Origin: Crocinitomicaceae bacterium
Lineage (GTDB): Bacteria > Bacteroidota > Bacteroidia > Flavobacteriales_D > Crocinitomicaceae
Direction of reading: 5' to 3'
DNA length: 40,488 nucleotides
Assembly: GCA_023253775.1 (NCBI GenBank)
Contig: JALRFI010000172.1
Coordinates: 1 to 40,488, forward strand
In this document: piece after piece, positions 1,472 through 20,168 of the stretch
How the letters are laid out: each line of letters starts with the position of its first letter
Numbering within the stretch: the first letter of the stretch is position 1
The notes under the pieces: model-generated
Seen by the model: only the letters and a program-made list of their open reading frames with translations
The model's database searches: none
What the model was told of the DNA's origin: nothing
Translations under genes and position numbers: made by a program

Positions 1472-3988
1472 ATGAAAATTTCTGAGTACTCGTATGGCGA
1501 TGAGTACAAAATTATTGAAGAACTAAAACATTTTCTTCCAAGTCAAGCCCCGTTAAAAGACTTTATTCATCACAATACTTTACATGCTTTTCAGCATGAT
1601 GAGTTTGAAAAAGCCTTGTTTAATGCTTCGCAGACCTTTGGGTATCGTGTCTACCTATCACTTGATCAATTCAGGATGAAATTCCGTGAAGGTGAAATTG
1701 AGGAGTCAATTCTCGATGAGGAGATAAGAATTAGAAAGGGCAACGATTCCGAAAGCTGGAAAAGGAAAATGTTAGAAGGTGCCTTCAACGAGGATCTTGA
1801 ACCTGAAATCGGAAGATTAAGGCATCATTGGAAATCAAGGTACAGGATCGACATGGATTCAATGGTTCATCCGTTATTTTTCAGGATCCTGAGCAGTTAT
1901 CTGGATCAAGGGATTGCAATATGGGGATTCCCTGTGTCTGATAAAGGTTTTTTAGTTTCCCTGGCTGATTTGGAAAGGAATTCAAAAACTTCCTTTTTCA
2001 AAACGGATCGAGCAAGAAAATTACTAATCGATGGAAGATCAAATCTTTCTGATCTGCTTAAACTAATTGTTGGGAATAAGGAGTTATATGAAAGATATCT
2101 TTTTGATCAGCAATTTGCTCATCCGGGTTGGTCCGGAATGGTCGCGGTCATTGAAGGGAATATTGAGCATCTCCTTGATAAGAGGAAGATAACGCTTGAG
2201 GAGTTCATCTGTTTTGAGTTACTATTGGAAATTGATGTGCTGGATGATCATTTCGGTTGTGTTTGGTCTCCGATTGGAGTGAACAACCCTGATCATTTTG
2301 AAGATTTGTTTTCGCACAAAAAGGTGAATGAGTACTTTGAAGTACTTCATATTTTTCAAGCATCCTATGAATGGACATATTACCAAAGTGTTCTGAGAGG
2401 AATTGGTCAGTTGAAGAAAGAGCAAAGGGAAGAACTTCAAACCTTCGTTGCTTTGTTCTGTATTGATGATAGGGAATGTTCAATAAGAAGGCATTTAGAA
2501 TCACAGAACCCTGGGATCAAAACTTATGGGACGGCTGGGTTCTTTAATGTGGAGTTCTTTTATCAATCAGGAGAGAGTCAATTTTACACAAAGGTGTGCC
2601 CAGCTCCTTTAACTCCTGCGTATTTGATCAAAGATGAAAGTGCATCCTTTAAAAAGAAAAAGGATTTCCACTTTGGACATCATTCTAATGGCCTTTTCTT
2701 AGGATGGATATTCACTTACACCTTAGGATTTTGGTCTGCTTTGAGACTCTTTTTAACTGTCTTCAAACCTCAGGAGTCAGCCTCAATGGTGACATCTTTT
2801 GGACATATGGATCCTCAGTCAAAACTCACTATTGAAAATAAAAATGGCGAGAAAACCGAGGACGGTTTACAGATTGGATTTACAATTCATGAAATGGCTG
2901 ATCGTCTGGAAGGTTTACTGAGAAGTATAGGATTGATCTCGAATTTTGGTAAAGTGATTTATGCAATTGGTCATGGATCAAGTAGTGTAAATAATACGCA
3001 TTATGCAGGCTACGATTGCGGTGCTTGTTCCGGGAGGCCTGGATCAGTTAATGCAAGAGTAATCGCTCATATTGGAAACCACCAACAAGTTCGATCAATA
3101 CTCAGAGAAAAGGGGATCGATATTCCGGATGAAACAGTCTTTGTGGGGGCATTGCATGACACCTCTAGGGATGAGATTATGTACTATGATCTTGATGTTT
3201 TAAGTCCTGCACAAAGTAAATATCATCAAGCTTTCGCTGATTCAATGAGCAATGCGCTTGATTTTAATGCAAAGGAGCGTTCACGCAGATTTGTTCTTAC
3301 ACCTTCACATGGAGATCCAAAAAAGGTTCATGAAAAGGTAAAGCTGAGAACGATCTCACTTTTTGAACCAAGACCTGAATTGAATCATGCGACGAATACC
3401 TTGTGTATAGTAGGTAGGAGAGAATTGACAAAGAACCTGTTCCTAGATCGAAGAGCATTTTTGAATTCATACGACTATAGTATTGATCCAGAAGGAAAAT
3501 ATCTTACTGGTATTCTGAATGCCGTAGCACCCGTTTGTGGTGGGATTAATCTAGAATATTTCTTCTCTAGAGTCGATAATCAGAAACTAGGAGCCGGAAC
3601 AAAACTACCTCATAATGTGATGGGATTGATCGGTGTGGCCAATGGTATTGATGGAGACTTGCGAACCGGTTTACCGAGTCAAATGATCGAAGTACATGAT
3701 CCGTTAAGGCTATTGGTGATCGTCGAACATGATCCTGAAGTGGTTCTAAATGTGTTGATCAACAATCCAAAAACATACGAATGGTTTCTGAACGGATGGG
3801 TGAATTTGTGTGTGCTGGATCCAATGACATCCATTGTTTACAGGTTCTTGAATGGTGAATTAATTCCTTCGGATCTGAACGAACCACTCAATCAAACAAT
3901 TGCAGATCTGATGAAGACTGTAGAAGTTAATTCTGAAAATCTACCTGTTAGTCATTTAATACCTGAAGAATATGGAACAGCTCGTTAA
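1472..3988 (+). CDS. dabA: inorganic carbon transporter subunit DabA (DUF2309/UPF0753)
   Basis: An 838-residue DUF2309 protein, the soluble peripheral subunit of the DAB inorganic-carbon accumulation complex. DabA has a beta-carbonic-anhydrase-like zinc site thought to hydrate CO2 directionally when coupled to the cation flux of DabB. The zinc site is complete: Cys330 and Asp332 in CIDDRE, His501 in GHGSSS, and Cys516 in DCGACSG. The spacings (2 and 15 residues) equal those of the Halothiobacillus ligands C351/D353/H524/C539. The family's N-terminal motif is at residues 31-40 (FIHHNTLHAF). ATG 1472 has no better alternative downstream. The 3' end overlaps dabB by 17 bases, indicating translational coupling. 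A carboxylase pathway is not visible here, so the likely use is supplying bicarbonate for anaplerotic or biosynthetic carboxylation. Confidence 0.95.
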   Translation: MKISEYSYGDEYKIIEELKHFLPSQAPLKDFIHHNTLHAFQHDEFEKALFNASQTFGYRVYLSLDQFRMKFREGEIEESILDEEIRIRKGNDSESWKRKMLEGAFNEDLEPEIGRLRHHWKSRYRIDMDSMVHPLFFRILSSYLDQGIAIWGFPVSDKGFLVSLADLERNSKTSFFKTDRARKLLIDGRSNLSDLLKLIVGNKELYERYLFDQQFAHPGWSGMVAVIEGNIEHLLDKRKITLEEFICFELLLEIDVLDDHFGCVWSPIGVNNPDHFEDLFSHKKVNEYFEVLHIFQASYEWTYYQSVLRGIGQLKKEQREELQTFVALFCIDDRECSIRRHLESQNPGIKTYGTAGFFNVEFFYQSGESQFYTKVCPAPLTPAYLIKDESASFKKKKDFHFGHHSNGLFLGWIFTYTLGFWSALRLFLTVFKPQESASMVTSFGHMDPQSKLTIENKNGEKTEDGLQIGFTIHEMADRLEGLLRSIGLISNFGKVIYAIGHGSSSVNNTHYAGYDCGACSGRPGSVNARVIAHIGNHQQVRSILREKGIDIPDETVFVGALHDTSRDEIMYYDLDVLSPAQSKYHQAFADSMSNALDFNAKERSRRFVLTPSHGDPKKVHEKVKLRTISLFEPRPELNHATNTLCIVGRRELTKNLFLDRRAFLNSYDYSIDPEGKYLTGILNAVAPVCGGINLEYFFSRVDNQKLGAGTKLPHNVMGLIGVANGIDGDLRTGLPSQMIEVHDPLRLLVIVEHDPEVVLNVLINNPKTYEWFLNGWVNLCVLDPMTSIVYRFLNGELIPSDLNEPLNQTIADLMKTVEVNSENLPVSHLIPEEYGTAR

Positions 3989-5840
3989 TTTATTTGTGCT
4001 GATCCCATTATTCGGTTTTATTATGGGATTAGTTATCCCTTCACAAAAGGAGGGAGCACTTTCGAAGATTACCTATGTAACGATCGGTTTGCAGCTTATA
4101 GTATCTGTGATCTTCATTGGATGGTGGATTTGGAATGAATCGAATGTCATAAATCTGAAGGAATTTTCAATTTTCAAAACAGTTCATTATGACTTTTTCA
4201 TTGACCTGTACTTTGATAAGATCTCAGCGACGTACATTCTTATTGGGGCAGTTCTTACTTTCCTTATAACGGTATATAGCAGATACTATTTGCATCGTGA
4301 GGAAGGGTATAAGAGGTTCTTCAATACAATCATGTTCTTCTATTTGGGTTACTCGATCGTTACCGTCTCCGGAAACCTTGAAACTCTTTTCATAGGGTGG
4401 GAAATTTTAGGGGTGTCATCCTTTTTATTGATCGCTTTTTATCGTGACAGATATTTGCCGGTGAAGAATGCGGTGAAGGTCTTCTCGATCTATCGCATCG
4501 GGGATGTTGGTGTGATCCTGGCAATGTGGCTTAGTCATCACATGTGGAATGAAAACATTTCATTTTATAAGTTGAACAATTATGAACTGGTGCATGATCA
4601 CATAGTTGAACATAGCTTGGTAGGGCTGTTCGTTGCCATCGTAATCTTTATTTCCGCTGCTGCCAAATCAGCTCAGCTTCCATTTTCAAGTTGGTTACCG
4701 AGAGCTATGGAAGGTCCAACTCCGTCGAGTGCAATTTTTTACGGATCGCTAAGCGTTCATATGGGGGCTTTCCTTTTAATGAGGACATATCCATTTTGGG
4801 AACAACAGATCTCATTCAGGATATTCGTCATTTTAATGGGGATTGCGACTAGTGTGATGGCGACATTGACCGCACGGGTTCAATCGTCAATAAAAAGCCA
4901 GATCGCATATTCTTCTGTTGCTCAGATAGGATTGATCTTTGTTGAAATCGCCTTGGGATGGGAAACATTCGCGTTGATCCATGTTGCAGGTAATGCATTC
5001 CTAAGAACATATCAATTGTTGGTTTCTCCGTCGATAGTAAGCTATAAGATCAGAGAGCAGCAATATCATTTCGTGCCGAAACAAAGGACGCTTGAAGACA
5101 GTTGGCCGAAGCGAATTGAATACACACTCTATATGTTGAGTTTGAAAGAATGGAACCTTGATTCTATCATGTATAAATACATGTGGAATCCTTTAAAGAA
5201 AATAGGTTCCAGATGGTCTTTCTTGACGTTTAAAAATGTTTATTTCTTTTTTGCAGGAGCCTTCATTTTGGGGATGGTTCTGTCGTTTAATCAAGACTGG
5301 ATTTCTCCATGGTGGAGATTTTACCTTCCATTGATCTATGCCTTTATTGGATTGTTAATGGTGATCAAAGCGTTCACCGAACGCGCCAGTGTGCGATTAA
5401 GCTGGAGCTTGATCATAACAAATCACTTTGGTATTGCTCTGGCAATTTCATTCAATGAACATTTTGATGCCCTGCATCATGTTTGGTATCTCGGTGGGGT
5501 CGTTGTTTCTGGATTGCTCGGCTATGCATGTATTCAAAGACTAAGATCACTTGAAAGCTGGGTGAGTTTGGATCAATTCTATGGACATGTCTATGAACAT
5601 CCCAAAATTGGATTCATGTTTTTAATTGCTTGTTTGGGTGTTTCAGGATTTCCGATCACTCCCACGTTCGTTGGAGAGGATTTGATCTTTAGCCACATAA
5701 AGGAAGATCAATTGATGTTGGCATTCTTGATTTCAATGAGTTTCATCATCAATGGCCTGGCAGCAATCAGGATCTATGCAAGAATATTTTTAGGACCTCA
5801 TGTTAAAACCTATCACGGATCAGCAAAGAGGTCATCATAA
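3972..5840 (+). CDS. dabB: inorganic carbon transporter membrane subunit DabB (NuoL-like)
   Basis: A 622-residue polytopic inner-membrane protein of the NuoL/MrpA proton-conducting family, partner of DabA. It carries the family signature: WEILGVSSFLLIAFYRDR with the key Glu, and AAAKSAQLPFSSWLPRAM with the key Lys, followed by EGPTPSSA. NuoL's HAATMV segment is replaced by FYGSLSVHMG. No other complex I or Mrp subunits are nearby, and adjacency to dabA makes DabB the best reading. A hydrophilic stretch around residues 355-410 splits two hydrophobic halves. It should supply ion-gradient energy (H+ or Na+) to DabA. It overlaps dabA by 17 bases and is followed 29 bases later by a SulP permease. 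Confidence 0.93.
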   Translation: MEQLVNLFVLIPLFGFIMGLVIPSQKEGALSKITYVTIGLQLIVSVIFIGWWIWNESNVINLKEFSIFKTVHYDFFIDLYFDKISATYILIGAVLTFLITVYSRYYLHREEGYKRFFNTIMFFYLGYSIVTVSGNLETLFIGWEILGVSSFLLIAFYRDRYLPVKNAVKVFSIYRIGDVGVILAMWLSHHMWNENISFYKLNNYELVHDHIVEHSLVGLFVAIVIFISAAAKSAQLPFSSWLPRAMEGPTPSSAIFYGSLSVHMGAFLLMRTYPFWEQQISFRIFVILMGIATSVMATLTARVQSSIKSQIAYSSVAQIGLIFVEIALGWETFALIHVAGNAFLRTYQLLVSPSIVSYKIREQQYHFVPKQRTLEDSWPKRIEYTLYMLSLKEWNLDSIMYKYMWNPLKKIGSRWSFLTFKNVYFFFAGAFILGMVLSFNQDWISPWWRFYLPLIYAFIGLLMVIKAFTERASVRLSWSLIITNHFGIALAISFNEHFDALHHVWYLGGVVVSGLLGYACIQRLRSLESWVSLDQFYGHVYEHPKIGFMFLIACLGVSGFPITPTFVGEDLIFSHIKEDQLMLAFLISMSFIINGLAAIRIYARIFLGPHVKTYHGSAKRSS

Positions 5841-5869
5841 TTGAATTAATAACATTAAATAGAAATAAG

Positions 5870-7459
5870 ATGTTACAAGAAAAAATAAAGGTTCCACAAG
5901 ATGGAATCAAAGGTTTGAAAGAAAATTTTGGAGTAGATTTTCTTTCTGGTTTTATGGTTTTTTTATTGGCATTACCACTCAGTTTAGGTATTGCTAAAGC
6001 CAGTGAGTTTCCTCCGGCAATGGGTGTGCTTACAGCAATGATTGGAGGTCTCTTCGTGTCATTGTTTATGGGTGCAAGAATGACGATAAAAGGTCCTGCT
6101 GCAGGTTTAATTACTGTTTGCGCAGGAGCTGTAATTGAAATGGGAGGAGGTGTCGCAGGTTGGCAAATGACTGTGGCAGCTATTGTAGTGACAGGTGTGA
6201 TCCAGTACATTTTGGGATGGCTCAAAGTAGGAAAATTGAACGATTTTTTCCCTCATTCTGCTGTTCATGGAATGTTGGCTGCGATCGGGATACTCATTTT
6301 TGCTAAGCAATTCCCCATTCTATTAGGAGTGGATCCTGCTTTAACGAAAGGGCTTTCACCAATTGAATTGTATACCCACATTCCACTTTTCATTACAAAA
6401 GCTAACCCGACAATCGCCTTAATAGGAATTATTGGATTAGTGATCCTTTTCGGATTACCTCTCCTTGGGAAATCCTTTAAAAAAGTTCCAGGTCCTTTGG
6501 TTGTTTTATTGATTGCGGTTCCTATTGCAATTGGAATGGATTTCAAAACTTTACAACCAGAATATTCATTAGTGAAAATTGGAGATTTCTGGAGTACAGT
6601 GAAGATCAACGTTGACTTCTCACTTGTCGGAACATTTGTTTTCTGGAAATATGTTTTCATGTTCTTATTCGTAAATAGTTTAGAGTCATTATTGACGGTT
6701 AAAGCGATAGACGGTCAGGATCCGTACAAAAGAAAATCTGATTATGATAAAGATCTTAGGGCTCTTGGAATGGGTAATTCCTTGTCAGGTTTATTAGGTG
6801 GGCTACCAATGATCTCTGAAGTTGCCCGTAGTGCGGCAAACGTCAATTTTGGTGGAAGAACCAGATGGGCTAATTTCTTTCATGGGTTCTTCTTATTGGT
6901 CGCCATGTTGCTTATGATTCCTGTGATCGAACTTATTCCTAATTCTGCATTGGCAGCGATGTTGATCTTTGTAGCCTACCGTTTGGCTTCTCCAAAAGAG
7001 TTCATAGGCGTTTACAAAGTTGGTCCAGAACAATTGGTGATCTTTTGTACTACGATCTTGGTAACTGTATTAGAAGACCTGTTATTGGGAATAGCTGCAG
7101 GTATCCTGGTGAAGTTTATCTTCCACTTAGCGAATGGTGCTAAATTCTCATCATTGTTCAAGGCAAAGTATTCGATCAAAGTTATTGGTGATCAACATTA
7201 CCTGGATCTTGAAGGGTCAGCGGTTTTCTCTAATTTGATTACATTTAAACATATTTTTGAAGAAATCCCCAAAAGAAAACTAATCATCATCGATTTTTCG
7301 AAGGTGAGATTTATTGATCATTCCTTCATGGACTTTTTAGAGCGATTTGAAGAAGATTATCAATATGAGGGTGGCAGAGTCACAATAGTGGGTTTTGAGA
7401 AGTTTAAAAACCTCTCCAAGCATAATTTATGTGCAAGAAAAAGTGTAAGTAATGCGTAG
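5870..7459 (+). CDS. SulP family anion permease with C-terminal STAS domain
   Basis: 529 residues. Positions of about 20-430 form the hydrophobic SulP core, with the early family motif FLLALPLSLGIAKASEFPP and the GPAAGLI segment. Residues of about 440-525 are a STAS domain (LIIIDFSKVRFIDHSFMDFL). SulP proteins exchange or symport sulfate, bicarbonate and related anions; BicA-type members take up bicarbonate with Na+. Location 29 bases after dabB and before a porin-like gene supports a bicarbonate role, by context only. The STAS loop has DHS where anti-anti-sigma proteins have DSS, so canonical Ser phosphorylation at that position is unlikely. The stop overlaps the next ORF's first ATG. Confidence 0.88.
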   Translation: MLQEKIKVPQDGIKGLKENFGVDFLSGFMVFLLALPLSLGIAKASEFPPAMGVLTAMIGGLFVSLFMGARMTIKGPAAGLITVCAGAVIEMGGGVAGWQMTVAAIVVTGVIQYILGWLKVGKLNDFFPHSAVHGMLAAIGILIFAKQFPILLGVDPALTKGLSPIELYTHIPLFITKANPTIALIGIIGLVILFGLPLLGKSFKKVPGPLVVLLIAVPIAIGMDFKTLQPEYSLVKIGDFWSTVKINVDFSLVGTFVFWKYVFMFLFVNSLESLLTVKAIDGQDPYKRKSDYDKDLRALGMGNSLSGLLGGLPMISEVARSAANVNFGGRTRWANFFHGFFLLVAMLLMIPVIELIPNSALAAMLIFVAYRLASPKEFIGVYKVGPEQLVIFCTTILVTVLEDLLLGIAAGILVKFIFHLANGAKFSSLFKAKYSIKVIGDQHYLDLEGSAVFSNLITFKHIFEEIPKRKLIIIDFSKVRFIDHSFMDFLERFEEDYQYEGGRVTIVGFEKFKNLSKHNLCARKSVSNA

Positions 7460-8804
7460 TCTAAGTATGAAGCCTTTTCGTTTATTGTTCTTATGTATTT
7501 TGACGTTATCAAATCAGCTAATGGCCCAGAAGAATGATCTCAAATTTTGGTTTGACGAGGCCAAAGGGACATACTTTCAAGTCACTTTCTTAAATCAGAC
7601 CTGGGTAAGGTTCAATGAAAGTAATTCGGGAACGAAACTGAATGGAGTTGAAGAAACAAGCACATTTGACATTGGATTAAGAAGGACTAGAATACAGATG
7701 TTTGGGCAGATCACCCCAAAAGCATTCATGTATTTTCAATTTGGACAAAACAATTTCAATGCAGTGTACAGCAACAATGGTAATCGCAAGATCGCCCCGT
7801 TTTTTCATGATGCACTTTGTGAATATAAATTGTCAAATGCCAATCAATTAAAATTTGGAGGAGGCTTGACCATAGCGAATGGATTGTCCAGATTCTCGCA
7901 ACCATCGATTGGCACAATAATGACCATGGACGTGCCTGTTTTTGCTCAGGCAACCGTAGAAAAGATCGATCAATTTGCAAGAAAGTTGAGTCTGTATGCA
8001 AGGGGTCAAGTATCAAAGTTGGATTACAGATTTGTCGTTTCAGATCCATTTCCAATCAGCACCCTAGGGGGATCGACTGAACCTATTTCAGACAATTCTT
8101 CTTTTTCAGTCCAAAAGCGAAATAAGCAGTTTCAGACCTATTTAAGTTGGCAGTTTTTGGAAAAAGAGGGGCATACCACTCCATACATGACTGGTACCTA
8201 TTTGGGTAAGAAAAAAGTGTTCAATGTAGCGGCCGGGATGATCTTTCAAAAAGACGCAATGTGGAGGACAGTGAATTCGGCTGATACATTGTTTGAGAAT
8301 CTTAATCTGTTCTGTGTTGAATCCTTTCTTGATCTACCTTTGAACAAAGAGAAAAAGAATGCAATAATGGCATATGCAGGGTATTTTATTACTGATTATG
8401 GAAAAAATTATTTGCGCTATAATGGGTTGATGAATCCGGCTGATGGTTCCAATGCTCAAAACGCAATTACAGAAGCGGGCCCTGTTTACGGTAATTCATA
8501 TCCGATGTTTGGCACAGGAAAAGTTATTTATTCTCAAATCGGTTACTTGTTTCGAAATAATTTGCTGGGAGAAGAGTTAGGCACACTTCAACCGTATGCT
8601 TCTTTTACATTAGGAAAATATGAAAGGCTGCAGGGAAACAATTCTGATGTTTACAATGTTGGTCTGAATTGGTTGTTGAACGGACATAATGCTAAAATTT
8701 CATTCGATTTTCAGTCACGGCCGTCATTCTTTACAGAAAACAATGTTGTAACCAAAGGAGGGAGAAAGAGTTGTTTTATCCTTCAGTTTCAGGCTTCGAT
8801 TTAA
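7452..8804 (+). CDS. outer-membrane porin-like protein
   Basis: 450 residues with an N-terminal signal peptide (KPFRLLFLCILTLS...LMAQ) and alternating hydrophobic/polar beta-strand patterns to the C-terminus, which ends in a barrel-type strand (SCFILQFQASI). The segment IGLRRTRIQMFGQITPKAFM resembles the first strands of phosphate-selective (OprO/OprP-like) porins. The ORF may begin at 7452, overlapping sulP by 8 bases, or at ATG 7467, which gives a tighter signal peptide. Translational linkage with the SulP permease suggests it admits the same anion through the outer membrane, an inference from position. A strong terminator follows 32 bases after the stop. Confidence 0.75.
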   Translation: MRSLSMKPFRLLFLCILTLSNQLMAQKNDLKFWFDEAKGTYFQVTFLNQTWVRFNESNSGTKLNGVEETSTFDIGLRRTRIQMFGQITPKAFMYFQFGQNNFNAVYSNNGNRKIAPFFHDALCEYKLSNANQLKFGGGLTIANGLSRFSQPSIGTIMTMDVPVFAQATVEKIDQFARKLSLYARGQVSKLDYRFVVSDPFPISTLGGSTEPISDNSSFSVQKRNKQFQTYLSWQFLEKEGHTTPYMTGTYLGKKKVFNVAAGMIFQKDAMWRTVNSADTLFENLNLFCVESFLDLPLNKEKKNAIMAYAGYFITDYGKNYLRYNGLMNPADGSNAQNAITEAGPVYGNSYPMFGTGKVIYSQIGYLFRNNLLGEELGTLQPYASFTLGKYERLQGNNSDVYNVGLNWLLNGHNAKISFDFQSRPSFFTENNVVTKGGRKSCFILQFQASI

Positions 8805-12824: not shown

Positions 12825-14315
12825 TTAAAGTCTTTCTAATGGTGTTTTAACTCCATCAACTAAGGAGTAACATGCCAGCTTGTCTTTGAATACGGATGAT
12901 TTGAAAACTGATCTGTTTAAAAGCATTCTAACACATTCCTGAATACCTTCCACAATTGATGGGTGAGGATGGATCAATTCCGAAAGTATCTCGATAGGCA
13001 TTTGGAGTTTAACCAATAATCCAACTGCCTGTATTGCAGTAGAAGCATGTTCTCCAACTACCCTCATTCCAAGAATTCTCATCTGTTCGTCATTTGTAAC
13101 AATGATCTTGAAGAAGCCTTGAGTTTTACGCATTGCTATTGCTCGAGTTACTAAAGAATAGTCTAGTTTTACGACCTTAACAGGGATGTTTTGTTGCTCG
13201 CATTGCTGCTCATTAACGCCAACACTCGCCACCTCAGGATTTAGAAACATAATCGTGCAAACATTTTCATAGGAAAGTCTCTCGGGTTTGTTTCCGAAAG
13301 CTTTTTCAACAGCATGTCTTGCTTCAATCTCTCCCATATTTACAAGAGCGATCCTCCCGGAAACGTCTCCGACTGCATAGATATTTGGTACATTCGTCCT
13401 CGTATCATCATCACCGATGTGTATTCCCCTTTTTGACATTTGCACTCCTGCCTCTTCAAGCCCAAGCCCTTCAACATTTGGCGATCTTCCTATCGACAAA
13501 AGAGCTTTTTCAACATTAATGATTTCTTTTCGTCCATCTTCATAAGAAAGCTCATATTCCACCTGTCCATTCACAATTTCCATTCTTTCCAAATTGGCTT
13601 TAGAATGTATTGTTACACCTTTGGACGTGAGATTGGCAGCTATCAATTTCGAGATGTCTTCATCTTCGAAAGGCAAAATTCTCTCCTGACGATCGATGAT
13701 GTATACTTTTGTTTTCCCCAAATTCGAAAAGATAGTGGCGTATTCACAACCTATTACTCCGGCTCCAACGATCACCAGACTTTTTGGGTATTCATCTAGC
13801 TGATCGATCCCATCGCTCGTCATTATTATCTTTTCATCTACTGGGATATTTGAAACCTTTCTTGGGTGACTTCCGGTTGCCAAAATGATGTTGTCGCCCC
13901 AGATCACTTTTTCAGTGCCCTCATGATAGATGGTCACTTCATTAGCGTTGTTCAGAACACCTTTTCCTCTTTCATATGTGAGGAGTTTGTTCATCGTTTC
14001 GGTTTGAAGCAATTTTATATGACATGAATATTGAAATTTTCGCTCAAAAATCGCTTCTGCAAGTGTTCTCTTGATCTCGTTCCAGGAAACTTCATAGGGC
14101 GCCCTTCCTTCAGAAACGATCGTGTCGTTAATGTTTGCAACCTTATTTGAGATTTCCCATAGTGTTTTTGATGAGAGAGCTCCGTTGTACACACCCGCGC
14201 CACCAACTTTATCTTTTTCGATCAGGCAAACCTTTTTTCCAAAGTCAATTCCTCTCATTGCTGCAGCATAACCTGCGGGCCCTCCTCCAATAACAATCAG
14301 ATCAAATTTCTCCAT
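12825..14315 (-). CDS. lipoamide-dehydrogenase-fold flavoprotein lacking redox cysteines
   Basis: 496 residues from ATG at 14315. The track's longer start at 14387 overlaps the divergent gene and adds a non-homologous leader. It is an FAD/NAD(P) enzyme of the class I pyridine nucleotide-disulfide reductase family: FAD motif VIGGGPAGYAAAMRG, NAD motif IVGAGVIGCEYATIF, second FAD motif AVGDVSGRIAL, and a dimerisation domain with HPHPSIVE (His and Glu of the acid-base pair kept). The disulfide segment, normally GGxCLNxGCxPSK, reads GGAGVYNGALSSK, so both cysteines are replaced (Gly41, Ala46). It cannot act as a dithiol lipoamide dehydrogenase; a pyridine nucleotide transhydrogenase-like (SthA-type) or diaphorase role is more plausible. 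No 2-oxoacid dehydrogenase genes are adjacent. Confidence 0.88.
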   Translation of the reverse strand: MEKFDLIVIGGGPAGYAAAMRGIDFGKKVCLIEKDKVGGAGVYNGALSSKTLWEISNKVANINDTIVSEGRAPYEVSWNEIKRTLAEAIFERKFQYSCHIKLLQTETMNKLLTYERGKGVLNNANEVTIYHEGTEKVIWGDNIILATGSHPRKVSNIPVDEKIIMTSDGIDQLDEYPKSLVIVGAGVIGCEYATIFSNLGKTKVYIIDRQERILPFEDEDISKLIAANLTSKGVTIHSKANLERMEIVNGQVEYELSYEDGRKEIINVEKALLSIGRSPNVEGLGLEEAGVQMSKRGIHIGDDDTRTNVPNIYAVGDVSGRIALVNMGEIEARHAVEKAFGNKPERLSYENVCTIMFLNPEVASVGVNEQQCEQQNIPVKVVKLDYSLVTRAIAMRKTQGFFKIIVTNDEQMRILGMRVVGEHASTAIQAVGLLVKLQMPIEILSELIHPHPSIVEGIQECVRMLLNRSVFKSSVFKDKLACYSLVDGVKTPLERL

Positions 14316-14385: not shown

Positions 14386-14877
14386 ATGAAGGAAAGTTAC
14401 CGAGAATTATTGGTCACAGACAAAGGGAAAAAAGGAGAGATCAAAAAGCTTTTTAAAAATCTAAAGTCAAAGAAACCGAAAGATCTGGATCAAAAGATCC
14501 ACACTCTGCACAATGATGCATTTAAAAAGATCGATTGTCTGGAATGTGCAAATTGTTGTAAAACGACAAGTCCAATTTTCAGAGACGCCGACATACGCCG
14601 GATTTCAAAACATTTGAAAATAAAAGAGGCAAAGCTCATTAGTGATTACCTGAAAATGGATGAAGAGAATGATTACGTCCTTAAGAGCTCTCCCTGTGTC
14701 TTTTTAGGCGAGGATAATTATTGTTCAATTTATGAAGTAAGACCTCTTGCTTGCAGAGAATATCCGCATACAGACAGAAAAAACATGGTTCAAATTCTAG
14801 ATTTAACATTGAAAAACACGGAGGTGTGTCCTGCAGTGGGACTTATTGTGTCTCAATTCCTTGGTAAAAATTCGTAA
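14386..14877 (+). CDS. YkgJ-family cysteine cluster protein
   Basis: 163 residues. A basic N-terminal helix (KLFKNLKSKKPKD) precedes the cysteine cluster: CLECANCC at about residues 46-53, then PCVFL, CSIY, RPLACREYPH and a final Cys near residue 144. This is the YkgJ / UPF0153 pattern, thought to bind an Fe-S cluster or zinc; the biochemical role is unknown. It diverges from the flavoprotein gene across a gap of 70 bases, so both could share control. The next gene starts 53 bases after the stop. Confidence 0.88.
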   Translation: MKESYRELLVTDKGKKGEIKKLFKNLKSKKPKDLDQKIHTLHNDAFKKIDCLECANCCKTTSPIFRDADIRRISKHLKIKEAKLISDYLKMDEENDYVLKSSPCVFLGEDNYCSIYEVRPLACREYPHTDRKNMVQILDLTLKNTEVCPAVGLIVSQFLGKNS

Positions 14878-14930: not shown

Positions 14931-17900
14931 ATGAAATTATTCAGTAAATACATGGCGTTCAGTTATGTGTTTTTTCTATCACTTTTTTCTTATTCACAAC
15001 GAGCAAAAGAAGGGAACTATACAGTAACAGCCTCGAATACTGTAGTCAATACCTATACAACCATGACGGCTAACGCAAGTGCTGGGGCGACATCAATAAG
15101 TGTTACCAGTAATGCAATGTCAGGAGGTGTCTTCAGCGGAAATCTAGCTGCTGGTGATCTCATTATGATTATTCAGATGCAGGGTGCCTCAATAGACGTA
15201 AACACTATACCTACTGCTGTTTGGGGTGGAAATTATACTGTAATGGTTTCAGAGTGGATTGAATGGTGGCTGTATGCAGAGCTATGGGGAACAGTTTTGA
15301 ACTATAACAATTCTGGAAAGTTTGAGCAAGTCGAAGTAAAGAGTGTTTCTGGTTCAAACACCATTAATTTACAATGTGGTCTCCAAAATAATTACACATC
15401 TGCAGGCAAGGTTCAGGTAATTAGAGTCCCGAGATTTGACAACCTTACACTAAACTCAAATACTTCAATTGTTCCTACTTTGTGGAACGCATCTACGGGA
15501 GGTGTTGTTGCGATTGAAGTTAATGGAAATCTAACTTTAAATGCCAATTCGAGAATTTCAGCTTCTGGATATGGATTCAGAGGGGCTGTAGCGAATAATG
15601 TTGGAACCACTCTGAGTGGTGGAGCGACATGTGGATATGGACCTGGGTATGGTTGTACATTTTTAGGTTCTAATGTTTCTTCTAATGGTGGTCGTAAAGG
15701 AGAAGGCATAGCAGGTTATGAAACTGAATATGCAGTATTGTATTCGGAATTTGGCAGAGGGGCTCCTGCGAACGGAGGCGGAGGTGGAGGATACACAAAT
15801 TCGGGAGGAGGTGGAGGTTCCAACATCGGAGTTGGAACTTATACAGGAAAAGGGGTTCCGAATCCAACGTATAATGCTGCATGGAATTTGGAACTTCCTG
15901 GCTTAGGAGGTTCGAGCAGTCCTGGTGGAGGAAGAGGTGGTTATACTGTTAGTTCTTCAGATCAGAATGCTCTCACTCTTGGTCCTAATCAGGCTGCTTG
16001 GAGTGGTGCCGGTCGTCAGATCAATGGTGGTTTAGGTGGTCATTCTCTTACTTATGATGCTACTCGGCTTTTTATGGGCGGCGGAGGTGGTGCTGGTGAT
16101 CAGGATAATGGACAAGGTGGCGGCGGAGGCCGTGGTGGCGGTATTGCACATGTGACGGTCTACGGAAATATTTCAGGTACGGGAATTATTGAGGCCGATG
16201 GTTCAGTTGGTCAGAACTCAAATCCTAATAATCAGGTGCCGGTAATTTCGCCAACCTCTGCTCAGAGAAAGGGTAATGATGGAGCAGGTGGAGGAGGAGC
16301 AGGTGGGGCTGTATATATTAAAAATTCTTCTGTTATTCCTGCAGGAATTCAAGTTTATGCTCGAGGAGGAAACGGAGGGAATCAGGTGTTGAGCTCATAT
16401 TTTTCAGGAACGTCCTTTGAAGCAGGAGGACCTGGAGGTGCTGGTTCAGGTGGACAGATTGCATTCACTAGCGGAACTCCAACGACCTCAGTTGCTGGTG
16501 GAAATTCTGGAACAACGAATTCAGGTCAACTGAATGAATTTCCTCCAAATGGTGCAACGAATGGTGCATCCGGAATTGGGGGGATCGCAACTACGATATT
16601 TAACATGACAGCAAATAATGCAACTGTTTGTGGTAGTGGATCGGCAACATTATCGGTTAATGTTACTGGAATAGCACCCGGAACAATTACATGGTATACG
16701 ACACCTTATGGTAATGTAAGTGTTGGAACGGGAACAAGTTATACTCCAACTCCCACACCAGCGACTACAACAACTTTTTACGTAGGTGTGTGTCCAGGTA
16801 CATTCAGAGTGCCGGTTACGATAACTGTCAATCCAGCGCCTGCTATCAGTGGTACACCAATCTTAACGAATCCAAGTTGCTCAACCCCTGGAAGTATAAC
16901 AGGCTTAACAGCATCTGGTGGCACCGGTGCTTTGACGTATAACTGGAACTCAGTTGTTACAGCTGGACCAAACCTAACAAATGCGTCCGCAGGATCTTAT
17001 ACTTTAATCGTTACAGATGCATTAGGCTGCACAGCCTCCTCAGGACCTCACACCTTAACAGGTATTTCGGGTCCAACAATTGACAATACTGCTGTTGTTG
17101 TATCAAGCGAAATTTGTAACGGCACATTTGGTAGTATTACTGGATTGATCGCGACCGGAAATAGTCTTACTTACGCATGGAATAATGGTGGAGGTTCCTC
17201 TTTGAATGCAACAAATTTATTTTCTGGCACCTACACCTTAACAGTTACCGATAATTTGGGTTGTACCGCTACTTCAGGACCTTACGCAGTCGCTTTTGTG
17301 GCTGGGCCAAGTATCGACGACTCCGGAATTTCCATCATAAATGAAACATGTACTGCTTCGAATGGTTCAATCTCTGGAATCACATCGAGTGGTTCAGGAT
17401 TATCCTATTCATGGTCCAATGGGGGTGGTTCTAGTCTTAATGCATCGAATTTATCCGCAGGAAGTTATTCTTTGACGGTGACTGATGGAAATGGGTGCAC
17501 CGATAACTCTGGGCCATACAGCATTACAGATTCACCTGCTCCAGTGATTGATATCTCATCCATAGTTTTGAATGATGAGAATTGTGGAAATTCCGATGGA
17601 TCCATCGCAGGGATAACAGTAAGTGGTGGATCTCCGGCATACCTAATCTCGTGGACTAATACTTCACAAACAACATTGGATCTTTCTGGATTAAGCTCCG
17701 GATCATACTCTTTAACCGTTAGTGATCAGTTAGGATGTTCGGCCACGGCTGGCCCATTCTCAATTGCTAATCAGACAGGTACTACGATAGATAATTCAAA
17801 TGTCGTAGTTCAGGATGAGATCTGTAATGGCACATTGGGTTCAATTTCCGGATTAGTTGTAAGTGGCGGACAGGTTCCATTAGTTTATGCATGGAATGCT

Positions 17901-20168
17901 GCTCCTTCTGCAGGTCCCGTTCTTTCTGGAGCTTCTGCAGGTTCATATACTTTAAGTGTGATTGATGGAAATGGTTGTTTAGCACAGTCTGGGCCTTATA
18001 CGATCAATTATATTGCTGGACCAACTTTGGACGAATCACTCGCTTCAGTGACAGATGAGTCATGTAATGGTACTTTGGGTTCTATAACAGGATTTTCTGC
18101 TACGGGCACAAGTCTTACCTATACATGGAGTAATGGGGGAGGAAATAACATGGATGCGACCAGTCTGAATGCAGGAAATTATTCTTTGACGGTGACAGAT
18201 ATAAACGGATGCACAGCTTCTTCAGTTGTGTATAATGTTGATTTTATTGTTGGTCCGTCCATTGATAATAGTGGTCTTGTCGTTTCTCCAGAAAACTGTA
18301 ATAATGCCAATGGTGCCATTTCAGGCCTTTCGGCAAGTGGAACTTCACTTTCATATTCATGGAGTAACGGTGGAGGTACTGCAATAGACATAAGTAATGC
18401 TGTAGCGGGATCATACACATTGACAGTAACAGACGTCAATGGTTGTTCTGATACAGAGGGTCCGATCGTGATTTCAAATCAAGGTGGACCGTCAATAGAT
18501 GATTCGGGTATTTCGATCATGGATGAGCATTGTTCTCAAAATGATGGAAGTATATCAGGTATGACAGTGTCAGGAGGTTCTCCGGCCTATACTATCACTT
18601 GGTCAAATTCAACGCAGTCGACGTTGGATCTGACGTCTCTTGCGGCAGGTTCTTATCAGCTAACAGTATCAGATCAGAATGGTTGTTCGATTAGTAGCGG
18701 TCCTTATACGGTTAATGCGGTTGCCGGTCCTTCAATTGACGTTTCATCTGTAGTAGTTCAAGCTGAACTATGTGATGGCACTCAAGGATCCGTTACAGGA
18801 ATTACTGCATCTGGGACAGGCCTAACTTATGCATGGTCGAATGGTGGAGGAACGTCTCTTGATGCAACTGGATTGGTGCCAGGGACTTATGGTCTTACAG
18901 TTACAGATGCATTCGGATGTACGGCTAGCGCTGGCCCATACACTGTTGCTGCTCCAGCTGGGGTGAGTTTGGATCTATCAAATATGATCGTAAATGAAAC
19001 AGCTTGTACTTCTAACACCGGATCAATTTCAGGAATTATTATTGTAGGAGGTAATAATCCTTCTCCATTATGGTCAAACTCAGAAACGACGCTTGACATT
19101 AGCAATTTGGGAGCTGGTAGTTATACTTTAACAGTGACTGATGATGATGGTTGTACAGATCAGACTTCTGTTGATATTACGATGATCAATGCGCCGTCAA
19201 TTACTTCTGCAATACCAACTGATGTAAGTTGTTTTGGTTTATCTGATGGTAGTATTGATGTTACCATAGCCGGAGGAACAACTCCTTACTCGTTCACATG
19301 GACTCCTAATGTTGGATCTACTGAGGATGTTACGGCATTAGCAGCGGGTAATTATACTGTGGTAGTTACAGATGATGTCGGATGTTCGGATTCAGAAACG
19401 ATCACTGTAGCTGAAACTCAAGAGTTGTTGCTTACTTTATCTGTTACGGATATCAATTGTGCAACTGGTGCCTTAGGCGGAATAATCTCAAATGTTACAG
19501 GAGGAGATGGTAATTACACGTATTTGTGGGGTAATGGTGAAACGGCGTCCTCGATTTCAAATCAAAATGCAGGAGAGTATGGTTTAACTGTTACAGATGG
19601 CAATGGATGTAATTCAAATACATCAGGTATTATTGGTACAACTGGTTCAATTCCTGTAAGTGTTGATCCAGCTTATTCAGAAATAGATCTAGGATCTTCT
19701 GTTCAGTTGAATTTAACGGGTACGGGTACTGTAGTATGGACACCAAATACAACATTGGATTGTACAAGTTGTTCAGACCCTGTTGCTACTCCGTCTAATT
19801 CGACGACTTATGTTGCGATTGTGACGGACCCTAATGGTTGTTCTGGATCTGACTCTGCAACAGTGGTTATTAAAATGGTTTGCGGAGAATTGTTTCTGCC
19901 TACGATCTTTTCACCAAATGGAACTGGTCCGGCTGACAATAATGTGTTCAAAGCATTCGGAAACCCGTCCTGTGTAACTGAATTTAAGCTTCAGGTCTTC
20001 AACAGATGGGGTGAAATGGTATTTGACACCGAAACCATTGCGGAAGGCTGGGATGGTCAATATAAATCTCAAGATGCAAATACAGGCATCTACGTTTACC
20101 GTTTGTTTGCTGTTCTTATTGATGGAACAGTTGTAGATACATCGGGTAATTTGACCTTAGTGAGATAG
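14931..20168 (+). CDS. giant type IX-secreted adhesin-like protein with SprB repeats
   Basis: 1745 residues. Residues 1-22 are a signal peptide (YVFFLSLFSYS). About 25-275 is an N-terminal beta-rich domain. About 276-540 is very Gly-rich (GGGGGGYTNSGGGGGSN). About 557-634 is an Ig/PKD-like domain. About 634-1573 holds twelve tandem SprB-like repeats of about 78 residues. About 1576-1650 is another Ig-like domain (TTYVAIVTDPNGCSGSDS). The last 95 residues are the gliding-motility-associated C-terminal domain (LFLPTIFSPNG, FNRWGEMVFD, GWDGQY, GIYVYRLFAV) recognised by the type IX secretion system. It should be exported and attached to, or released from, the cell surface. SprB itself is a mobile gliding adhesin; this protein is much shorter, so adhesion or aggregation is inferred. 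It leads a tight run of genes. Confidence 0.92.
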   Translation: MKLFSKYMAFSYVFFLSLFSYSQRAKEGNYTVTASNTVVNTYTTMTANASAGATSISVTSNAMSGGVFSGNLAAGDLIMIIQMQGASIDVNTIPTAVWGGNYTVMVSEWIEWWLYAELWGTVLNYNNSGKFEQVEVKSVSGSNTINLQCGLQNNYTSAGKVQVIRVPRFDNLTLNSNTSIVPTLWNASTGGVVAIEVNGNLTLNANSRISASGYGFRGAVANNVGTTLSGGATCGYGPGYGCTFLGSNVSSNGGRKGEGIAGYETEYAVLYSEFGRGAPANGGGGGGYTNSGGGGGSNIGVGTYTGKGVPNPTYNAAWNLELPGLGGSSSPGGGRGGYTVSSSDQNALTLGPNQAAWSGAGRQINGGLGGHSLTYDATRLFMGGGGGAGDQDNGQGGGGGRGGGIAHVTVYGNISGTGIIEADGSVGQNSNPNNQVPVISPTSAQRKGNDGAGGGGAGGAVYIKNSSVIPAGIQVYARGGNGGNQVLSSYFSGTSFEAGGPGGAGSGGQIAFTSGTPTTSVAGGNSGTTNSGQLNEFPPNGATNGASGIGGIATTIFNMTANNATVCGSGSATLSVNVTGIAPGTITWYTTPYGNVSVGTGTSYTPTPTPATTTTFYVGVCPGTFRVPVTITVNPAPAISGTPILTNPSCSTPGSITGLTASGGTGALTYNWNSVVTAGPNLTNASAGSYTLIVTDALGCTASSGPHTLTGISGPTIDNTAVVVSSEICNGTFGSITGLIATGNSLTYAWNNGGGSSLNATNLFSGTYTLTVTDNLGCTATSGPYAVAFVAGPSIDDSGISIINETCTASNGSISGITSSGSGLSYSWSNGGGSSLNASNLSAGSYSLTVTDGNGCTDNSGPYSITDSPAPVIDISSIVLNDENCGNSDGSIAGITVSGGSPAYLISWTNTSQTTLDLSGLSSGSYSLTVSDQLGCSATAGPFSIANQTGTTIDNSNVVVQDEICNGTLGSISGLVVSGGQVPLVYAWNAAPSAGPVLSGASAGSYTLSVIDGNGCLAQSGPYTINYIAGPTLDESLASVTDESCNGTLGSITGFSATGTSLTYTWSNGGGNNMDATSLNAGNYSLTVTDINGCTASSVVYNVDFIVGPSIDNSGLVVSPENCNNANGAISGLSASGTSLSYSWSNGGGTAIDISNAVAGSYTLTVTDVNGCSDTEGPIVISNQGGPSIDDSGISIMDEHCSQNDGSISGMTVSGGSPAYTITWSNSTQSTLDLTSLAAGSYQLTVSDQNGCSISSGPYTVNAVAGPSIDVSSVVVQAELCDGTQGSVTGITASGTGLTYAWSNGGGTSLDATGLVPGTYGLTVTDAFGCTASAGPYTVAAPAGVSLDLSNMIVNETACTSNTGSISGIIIVGGNNPSPLWSNSETTLDISNLGAGSYTLTVTDDDGCTDQTSVDITMINAPSITSAIPTDVSCFGLSDGSIDVTIAGGTTPYSFTWTPNVGSTEDVTALAAGNYTVVVTDDVGCSDSETITVAETQELLLTLSVTDINCATGALGGIISNVTGGDGNYTYLWGNGETASSISNQNAGEYGLTVTDGNGCNSNTSGIIGTTGSIPVSVDPAYSEIDLGSSVQLNLTGTGTVVWTPNTTLDCTSCSDPVATPSNSTTYVAIVTDPNGCSGSDSATVVIKMVCGELFLPTIFSPNGTGPADNNVFKAFGNPSCVTEFKLQVFNRWGEMVFDTETIAEGWDGQYKSQDANTGIYVYRLFAVLIDGTVVDTSGNLTLVR
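16832..19650 (+). repeat. twelve tandem SprB-like repeats inside the adhesin gene
   Basis: Each unit is about 235 bases (78 residues) with the pattern GPSIDxS, ExCxGxxGSIxG, YxWSNGGG, LxAGSYTLTVTDxNGC, SGPYxV. The copies have diverged in DNA sequence but keep phase. The last two units (from about 19200) are nearer the general SprB consensus (CFGLSDGSIDVTIAGGTTPY) than the inner ones. Confidence 0.85.

Follow-up and report, generated by a model that had tools for sequence, protein, structure and literature searches.

The window examined here, a stretch of 40,488 nucleotides from a Crocinitomicaceae bacterium, encodes a flavoprotein resembling lipoamide dehydrogenase (Lpd) that has lost both cysteines of the redox-active CxxxxC loop and has kept the C-terminal His-Glu dyad. 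From comparison of sequences, the protein (hereafter the target) belongs to a phylum-wide clade of Bacteroidota defined by this same combination of lost cysteines and retained dyad. Such a clade appears to be new here: none was reported in the papers that we searched, and our literature searches found no description of the bacterial family. We give roughly even odds, a probability of about 50%, that the target is an NADH-dependent flavin reductase whose acceptor is something other than a disulfide.

The target gene lies on the minus strand in one open frame, and the plus-strand translation of the same interval is full of stops. An earlier sequence-only reading of this DNA had placed the gene at positions 12825-14315, which is correct, but had left the strand unstated. 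The start codon is the ATG at 14315, shared with homologues that begin MEK[FY]DL..., and the stop codon occupies 12825-12827. The features to which we refer below are these:

12825-14315, minus strand: coding sequence of the target, a cysteine-free Lpd-like flavoprotein; 496 amino acids and stop, an open frame with a start conserved in homologues.
14268-14288, minus strand: FAD-binding GGGPAGY, residues 10-16, which aligns with the Lpd motif GxGPxGY.
14166-14204, minus strand: GGAGVYNGALSSK, residues 38-50, in place of GGxCLNxGCxPSK; the first Cys is replaced by G41 and the second by A46.
14154-14159, minus strand: W53-E54 on the active-site helix, family-specific, in 69/69 members; Lpd has L53 and mostly K54.
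13692-13766, minus strand: NAD-binding GAGVIGCE through D208 at the end of the second strand (GAGVIGCE...IID), NADH-type; GxGxxG in 69/69 at the tested glycines.
12948-12971, minus strand: HPHPSIVE, residues 449-456, with the His451-Glu456 dyad; H451 and E456 in 69/69.
12933-12935, minus strand: C461 on the helix after the dyad, family-specific, in 66/69; Ala in nearly all Lpds, and Cys kept in the divergent f55 subgroup.
12828-12917, minus strand: C-terminal extension missing from Lpds, spanning residues 467-496 and folded as a beta hairpin in the model; C482 lies at 12870-12872.
14386-14877, plus strand: PF03692 CxxCxxCC protein (YkgJ-like, putative metal-chelating), divergent from the target; Pfam 3.2e-15.

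The sequence-only reading had claimed that the loop replaces GGxCLNxGCxPSK without either cysteine and that the FAD and NAD motifs remain intact together with HPHPSIVE, and all of these elements are found in the target as described. Among the 69 aligned family members, position 41 is Gly in 62 and Ala in 7, position 46 is Ala in 60 and Val in 9, and K50 is constant (69/69). G10, G12, P13, G15 and Y16 are invariant in the target family and in Lpd within one alignment. E191 is likewise invariant (69/69), and D208 is present in 67 of the 69, with Asn in the remaining two. The further claim that the protein has no cysteine holds for the loop pair but not for the protein overall, which has 7 cysteines outside the loop; two of these, C461 and C482, are characteristic of the family. 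C482 occurs in 66/69 members, and the remaining three carry a Cys within three residues of that position.

Both domains expected of the pyridine nucleotide-disulfide reductase superfamily were recovered by Pfam (Pyr_redox_2, 1.8e-55; Pyr_redox_dim, 3.9e-26), and an AlphaFold2 model with a pLDDT of 92.4, which supersedes an earlier, weak model from a shallow alignment (pLDDT 74.9), has a predicted Lpd fold with a hairpin at 480-492 in the C-terminal extension. Among solved structures, Lpds come closest to the model, with 6uzi at the head (TM 0.94 by target length, rmsd 1.9). With the domains and the predicted fold taken together, the target belongs to that superfamily at the level of fold. It resembles Lpd (E3, EC 1.8.1.4) not only in fold but also in domain order, in K50 and E191, and in the His-Glu dyad; it differs in the absence of CxxxxC (G/A and A/V at the two positions, 69/69), in an identity of only about 27-34%, in the extra C-terminal tail, and in its position in a separate clade.

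That position was obtained from two maximum-likelihood trees, which covered the target family together with Lpd, SthA, actinobacterial LpdA, mercuric reductase (MerA) and glutathione reductase. The sequence-only reading had called for a phylogeny against Lpd, SthA, MerA and their relatives; in both trees all members of the target family, including f55, fall in one clade with 100/100 support, distinct from each of the other groups. Lpd itself forms a separate clade in both (96/88 and 98/95). The trees leave the branching order among the target clade, Lpd, SthA, LpdA, MerA and glutathione reductase open, with SthA and glutathione reductase on long branches. Curated models agree in excluding the target: it scores 373.3 bits against NCBIfam TIGR01350 (Lpd; cut-off 408.8), 292 against the SthA model (cut-off 465), 279 against the MerA model (cut-off 454) and 272.6 against the LpdA model NF005883 (cut-off 479), and it also falls under the glutathione reductase cut-off. 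Six further members are under all of these cut-offs as well, with 350-373 bits against TIGR01350. The suggestion that this is a distinct subgroup is thus supported by the clade, by the sub-cut-off scores and by the family's own fixed residues. Two placements that we considered can be set aside, namely a recent degenerate Lpd paralogue, which is ruled out by the separate clade with its long stem, and membership in SthA or LpdA, which is ruled out by the defining motifs and the tree.

We examined the distribution of the family by several approaches. Scanning the genome collection yielded 80 loci with 59-97% identity, every one with a cysteine-free loop. More than 100 relatives, drawn from many independent assemblies, share the cysteine-free motif, and both cysteines are missing in every inspected relative, under more than 20 Bacteroidota family labels. 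A degenerate DNA pattern of the loop motif had matches in 37 of 295 genomes of the class, compared with 0/295 for the reversed-pattern control, and a family profile identified the family in 79/295 (458-972 bits), comprising 70 genomes with close members (626-972 bits) and nine with the divergent f55 type (458-481 bits). The five f55 proteins that were read out (L305-L309) show 39-41% identity, with the loop GGAALFNGALSSK and with QPHPALTEG; all five are cysteine-free in the loop and have no C-terminal tail. The family extends beyond the class within the phylum, to families f104 and f119, and in a phylum-wide sample its members score 649-972 bits, the next proteins being CxxxxC Lpds at no more than 308 bits. 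In a search of plasmids, the best matches to the target were MerA proteins at 33% identity.

Among 60 relatives, most hold an orthologue of the target at 61-97% identity beside ordinary Lpds at about 30%. The target's own genome (2.5 Mb, 86% complete) encodes two further superfamily proteins, both with normal CxxxxC loops, and because these two are ordinary Lpds the target is not needed as an E3 subunit. Comparison with a 96.5% identical relative gave an omega of 0.027, with synonymous change far above replacement, from which we conclude that the protein is maintained. It is dispensable, since several near-complete genomes of the same genus (G006, G016 and G025) are without it.

The target family is not alone in having lost both cysteines: the same is seen in yeast Irc15p, which was already known, and in an Arthrobacter protein that we encountered here. 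The latter is an LpdA-type protein in the frame over position 2001 of a plasmid locus of Arthrobacter sp. StoSoilB13 (L204), with the loop GGSAVLTDVVPSK; on its sequence it appears to be a separate cysteine-free lineage in the Actinomycetota. Irc15p, a paralogue of Lpd1p in Saccharomyces cerevisiae, is the nearest described parallel, in the sense of a likeness of described features and not of descent. It is Lpd-related and carries FAD, and a published comparison found it to have no cysteine pair and to have the His-Glu dyad; its origin is said to follow the yeast genome duplication (PMC6296175). It is rapidly reduced by NADH and has NADH diaphorase and quinone reductase activity, with ferricyanide, DCPIP, MTT and menadione as acceptors; it is inactive with lipoate, cystine and glutathione (PMC6296175). 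NADH has thus been shown as the donor for Irc15p and is predicted for the target; Irc15p differs in being eukaryotic and microtubule-associated, and there is no report of a similar bacterial family spanning a phylum or of a Cys-bearing C-terminal tail. Actinobacterial LpdA, an NAD(P)H-quinone dehydrogenase (M. tuberculosis Rv3303c, PDB 1xdi), is similar in having a GGAAVLDDCVPSK-like loop without a disulfide, and the Irc15p report describes LpdA as a quinone reductase, citing earlier work (PMC6296175). In LpdA, however, the dyad is replaced by Y/G, the D208 column holds Ser, and the target family, which keeps the pair, forms its separate 100/100 clade. The loss of the disulfide, together with these published relatives that have none, supports by analogy the proposal of the sequence-only reading that the target may use another electron acceptor.

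As an NADH-dependent flavin reductase, the target would be an FAD enzyme with the Lpd fold that has abandoned dithiol chemistry, presumably as a dimer by analogy with its relatives. NADH bound to the Rossmann domain would pass a hydride to FAD with the aid of the invariant Lys50-Glu191 pair; a Lys-Glu pair supports the hydride step in Lpd. In place of CxxxxC chemistry, FADH2 would reduce the second substrate directly, on the former disulfide side, while His451-Glu456 of the other subunit would give or take a proton. The second substrate would most likely be a small redox compound, quinone-like or otherwise, or else a redox protein of small size, and not a disulfide. The choice of donor is predicted from D208, an acidic residue at this column being typical of NADH-preferring Lpds, whereas we infer the direct transfer from FADH2 and, from the biochemistry of Irc15p and LpdA, the class of acceptor. 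Reduction of menadione and of dyes is a generic side activity of the fold and need not be physiological.

The invariance of K50, E191, H451 and E456 across the phylum-wide family (69/69) supports this explanation. Several considerations, besides the generic nature of menadione and dye reduction, count against it. Strict retention of the dyad is odd for a simple quinone reductase, given that LpdA, a quinone reductase, lost it, and that the usual partner of a His-Glu dyad is a thiol; and the predicted NADH specificity hangs on one residue. Genome context also points to no acceptor, as the neighbors of the target differ between families. Nor did co-occurrence single out a partner: 31 of 40 genomes with the target carry the CxxCxxCC gene, as do 25 of 40 without the target, and COX1 occurs in 68/68 with and 65/68 without.

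We also considered that the target might be a soluble transhydrogenase of the SthA type (EC 1.6.1.1), in which FAD relays electrons between nucleotides and so balances NADH and NADPH without the proton gradient, and we regard this as unlikely. The precedent is real: SthA has the Lpd-type fold with FAD and NAD domains and no working disulfide, and it reduces the other nicotinamide nucleotide from FAD (PMC9460512). The definition of this group, however, is the pair of motifs CxxxxT and YxxxxE (PMC9460512), and the target has GxxxxA and HxxxxE, so that both are missing. SthA has Asn at the nucleotide-specificity position, where D208 of the target argues against binding of NADPH, and the two proteins are separate in the tree; glutathione reductase has Val in this column. 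In SthA itself, moreover, the C45A change reduces activity about tenfold (PMC9460512). The sequence-only reading had noted that SthA-type enzymes keep one cysteine, which is correct as far as it goes, but it had missed the sharper contrast between the dyad kept here and its loss in SthA and LpdA, as well as the parallel with Irc15p.

The genomic neighborhood bears on the same question. In f36 and f18 the target gene lies immediately upstream of pntAA-pntAB-pntB in the same orientation; in two f49 genomes it is separated from the pnt genes by a single gene, and in f43 it is convergent with pntB (PntB was identified by a family model, and PntAA and PntAB were named from sequence and gene order). 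Proximity to pnt in these four families is the other point in favor of a transhydrogenase and, as gene order, is at most suggestive of a role in NAD(P)H balance. There is no preferential co-occurrence of the two: of 70 genomes with the target, 36 have PntB, compared with 190 of the full 295; the trend is weakly negative (Fisher p ~0.02, with relatedness ignored), and the target's own incomplete assembly gave no PntB match. The CxxCxxCC gene, whose start codon is separated from that of the target by 70 bases, adjoins the target in most Crocinitomicaceae loci and is nearby in f18, f39, f42 and f49; we take it from gene order to be a syntenic neighbor, with no partnership implied. G096 (contig C179) and G079 (contig C48) are without the target, yet keep the CxxCxxCC gene within a few kb of pntB. 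This arrangement suggests that the target gene was gained or lost inside an older syntenic block, and the pnt linkage may therefore be old synteny. Because D208 favors NADH and the motifs that define transhydrogenases are absent, we prefer a diaphorase, quinone-type or small-redox-partner reductase over a transhydrogenase.

Somewhat harder to sustain is the idea that the thiols were relocated, such that C482, with or without C461, forms a new thiol centre at a composite active site and is served by the dyad, much as cysteines near the C-terminus are employed in MerA and in high-molecular-weight thioredoxin reductase. This idea would account for retention of the dyad, and it draws on the conservation of C461 and C482 (66/69 each), on their absence from Lpds, and on the nearby Cys in those members where C482 is missing. 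Like MerA, the target has a C-terminal cysteine beyond the dimerisation domain, and C482 shares an alignment column with the C-terminal MerA Cys, although the match falls in a poorly constrained region. MerA differs in keeping CxxxxC, in having Tyr at the dyad His (Y/E in the dyad columns, as in SthA) and in having a vicinal CC, whereas the target has a single tail Cys in that column. Further points against the idea are that three tail-bearing members are without C461, that C461 is retained in the sister group f55, where the tail is missing, and that the model shows the tail as a packed hairpin and not as a flexible arm. A stronger form of the idea, in which the family would be an ancient type of flavoprotein reductase with a new thiol architecture, the redox thiol having migrated from CxxxxC to the C-terminal domain (C482, helped by C461 and His451-Glu456), strikes us as more doubtful still.

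We view with the same degree of doubt a former Lpd that has been kept for structure or regulation, for instance as an inactive partner subunit or an NADH sensor, with its flavin chemistry incidental. Irc15p has been proposed to act through an NADH/H2O2-dependent change of shape (PMC6296175), and the dispensability of the target noted above would suit such a role. The nicotinamide-binding, hydride-transfer and dyad residues are invariant over deep divergence, however, which is unexpected for a non-catalytic protein, and no E1 or E2 dehydrogenase genes were recognised among its neighbors. An ordinary Lpd altered by a sequencing error or by a single lineage-specific cysteine mutation can be dismissed as extremely improbable, for although the best NCBIfam and structure matches are Lpd-type, the same loop is found in all inspected relatives from independent assemblies, which refutes the sequencing error that the sequence-only reading had allowed for, and the separate clade, the 373 bits against a cut-off of 408.8 and the two true Lpds in the genome argue against the remainder.

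The target family fits no curated model for Lpd, transhydrogenase, quinone dehydrogenase or mercuric reductase, and in metabolic reconstructions the target could be misread as a third lipoamide dehydrogenase. The combination of lost cysteines and a fixed dyad provides a natural experiment on the role of the His-Glu pair without a disulfide. If the acceptor is found, the family would represent an added redox route for a phylum that is abundant in freshwater and marine systems.

Several other genes came to our attention during this work. At six loci (L185, L186, L189, L268, L270 and L289, from f45, f21 and f17) a di-haem cytochrome c peroxidase-like (MauG-like) gene, named by the appearance of its sequence, is convergent with the target gene. 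Elsewhere in the window, positions 14931-20168 encode a 1745-residue repetitive adhesin-like protein with a C-terminus that resembles type IX secretion sorting or gliding domains, as judged by sequence. We also wish to note a tandem of genes at 1472-8804 encoding DabA (PF10070, 709 bits), a DabB-like proton-antiporter/NDH-5 subunit, a SulP family transporter and a porin-like protein, which together make up a putative inorganic-carbon (DAB-type) uptake cluster.
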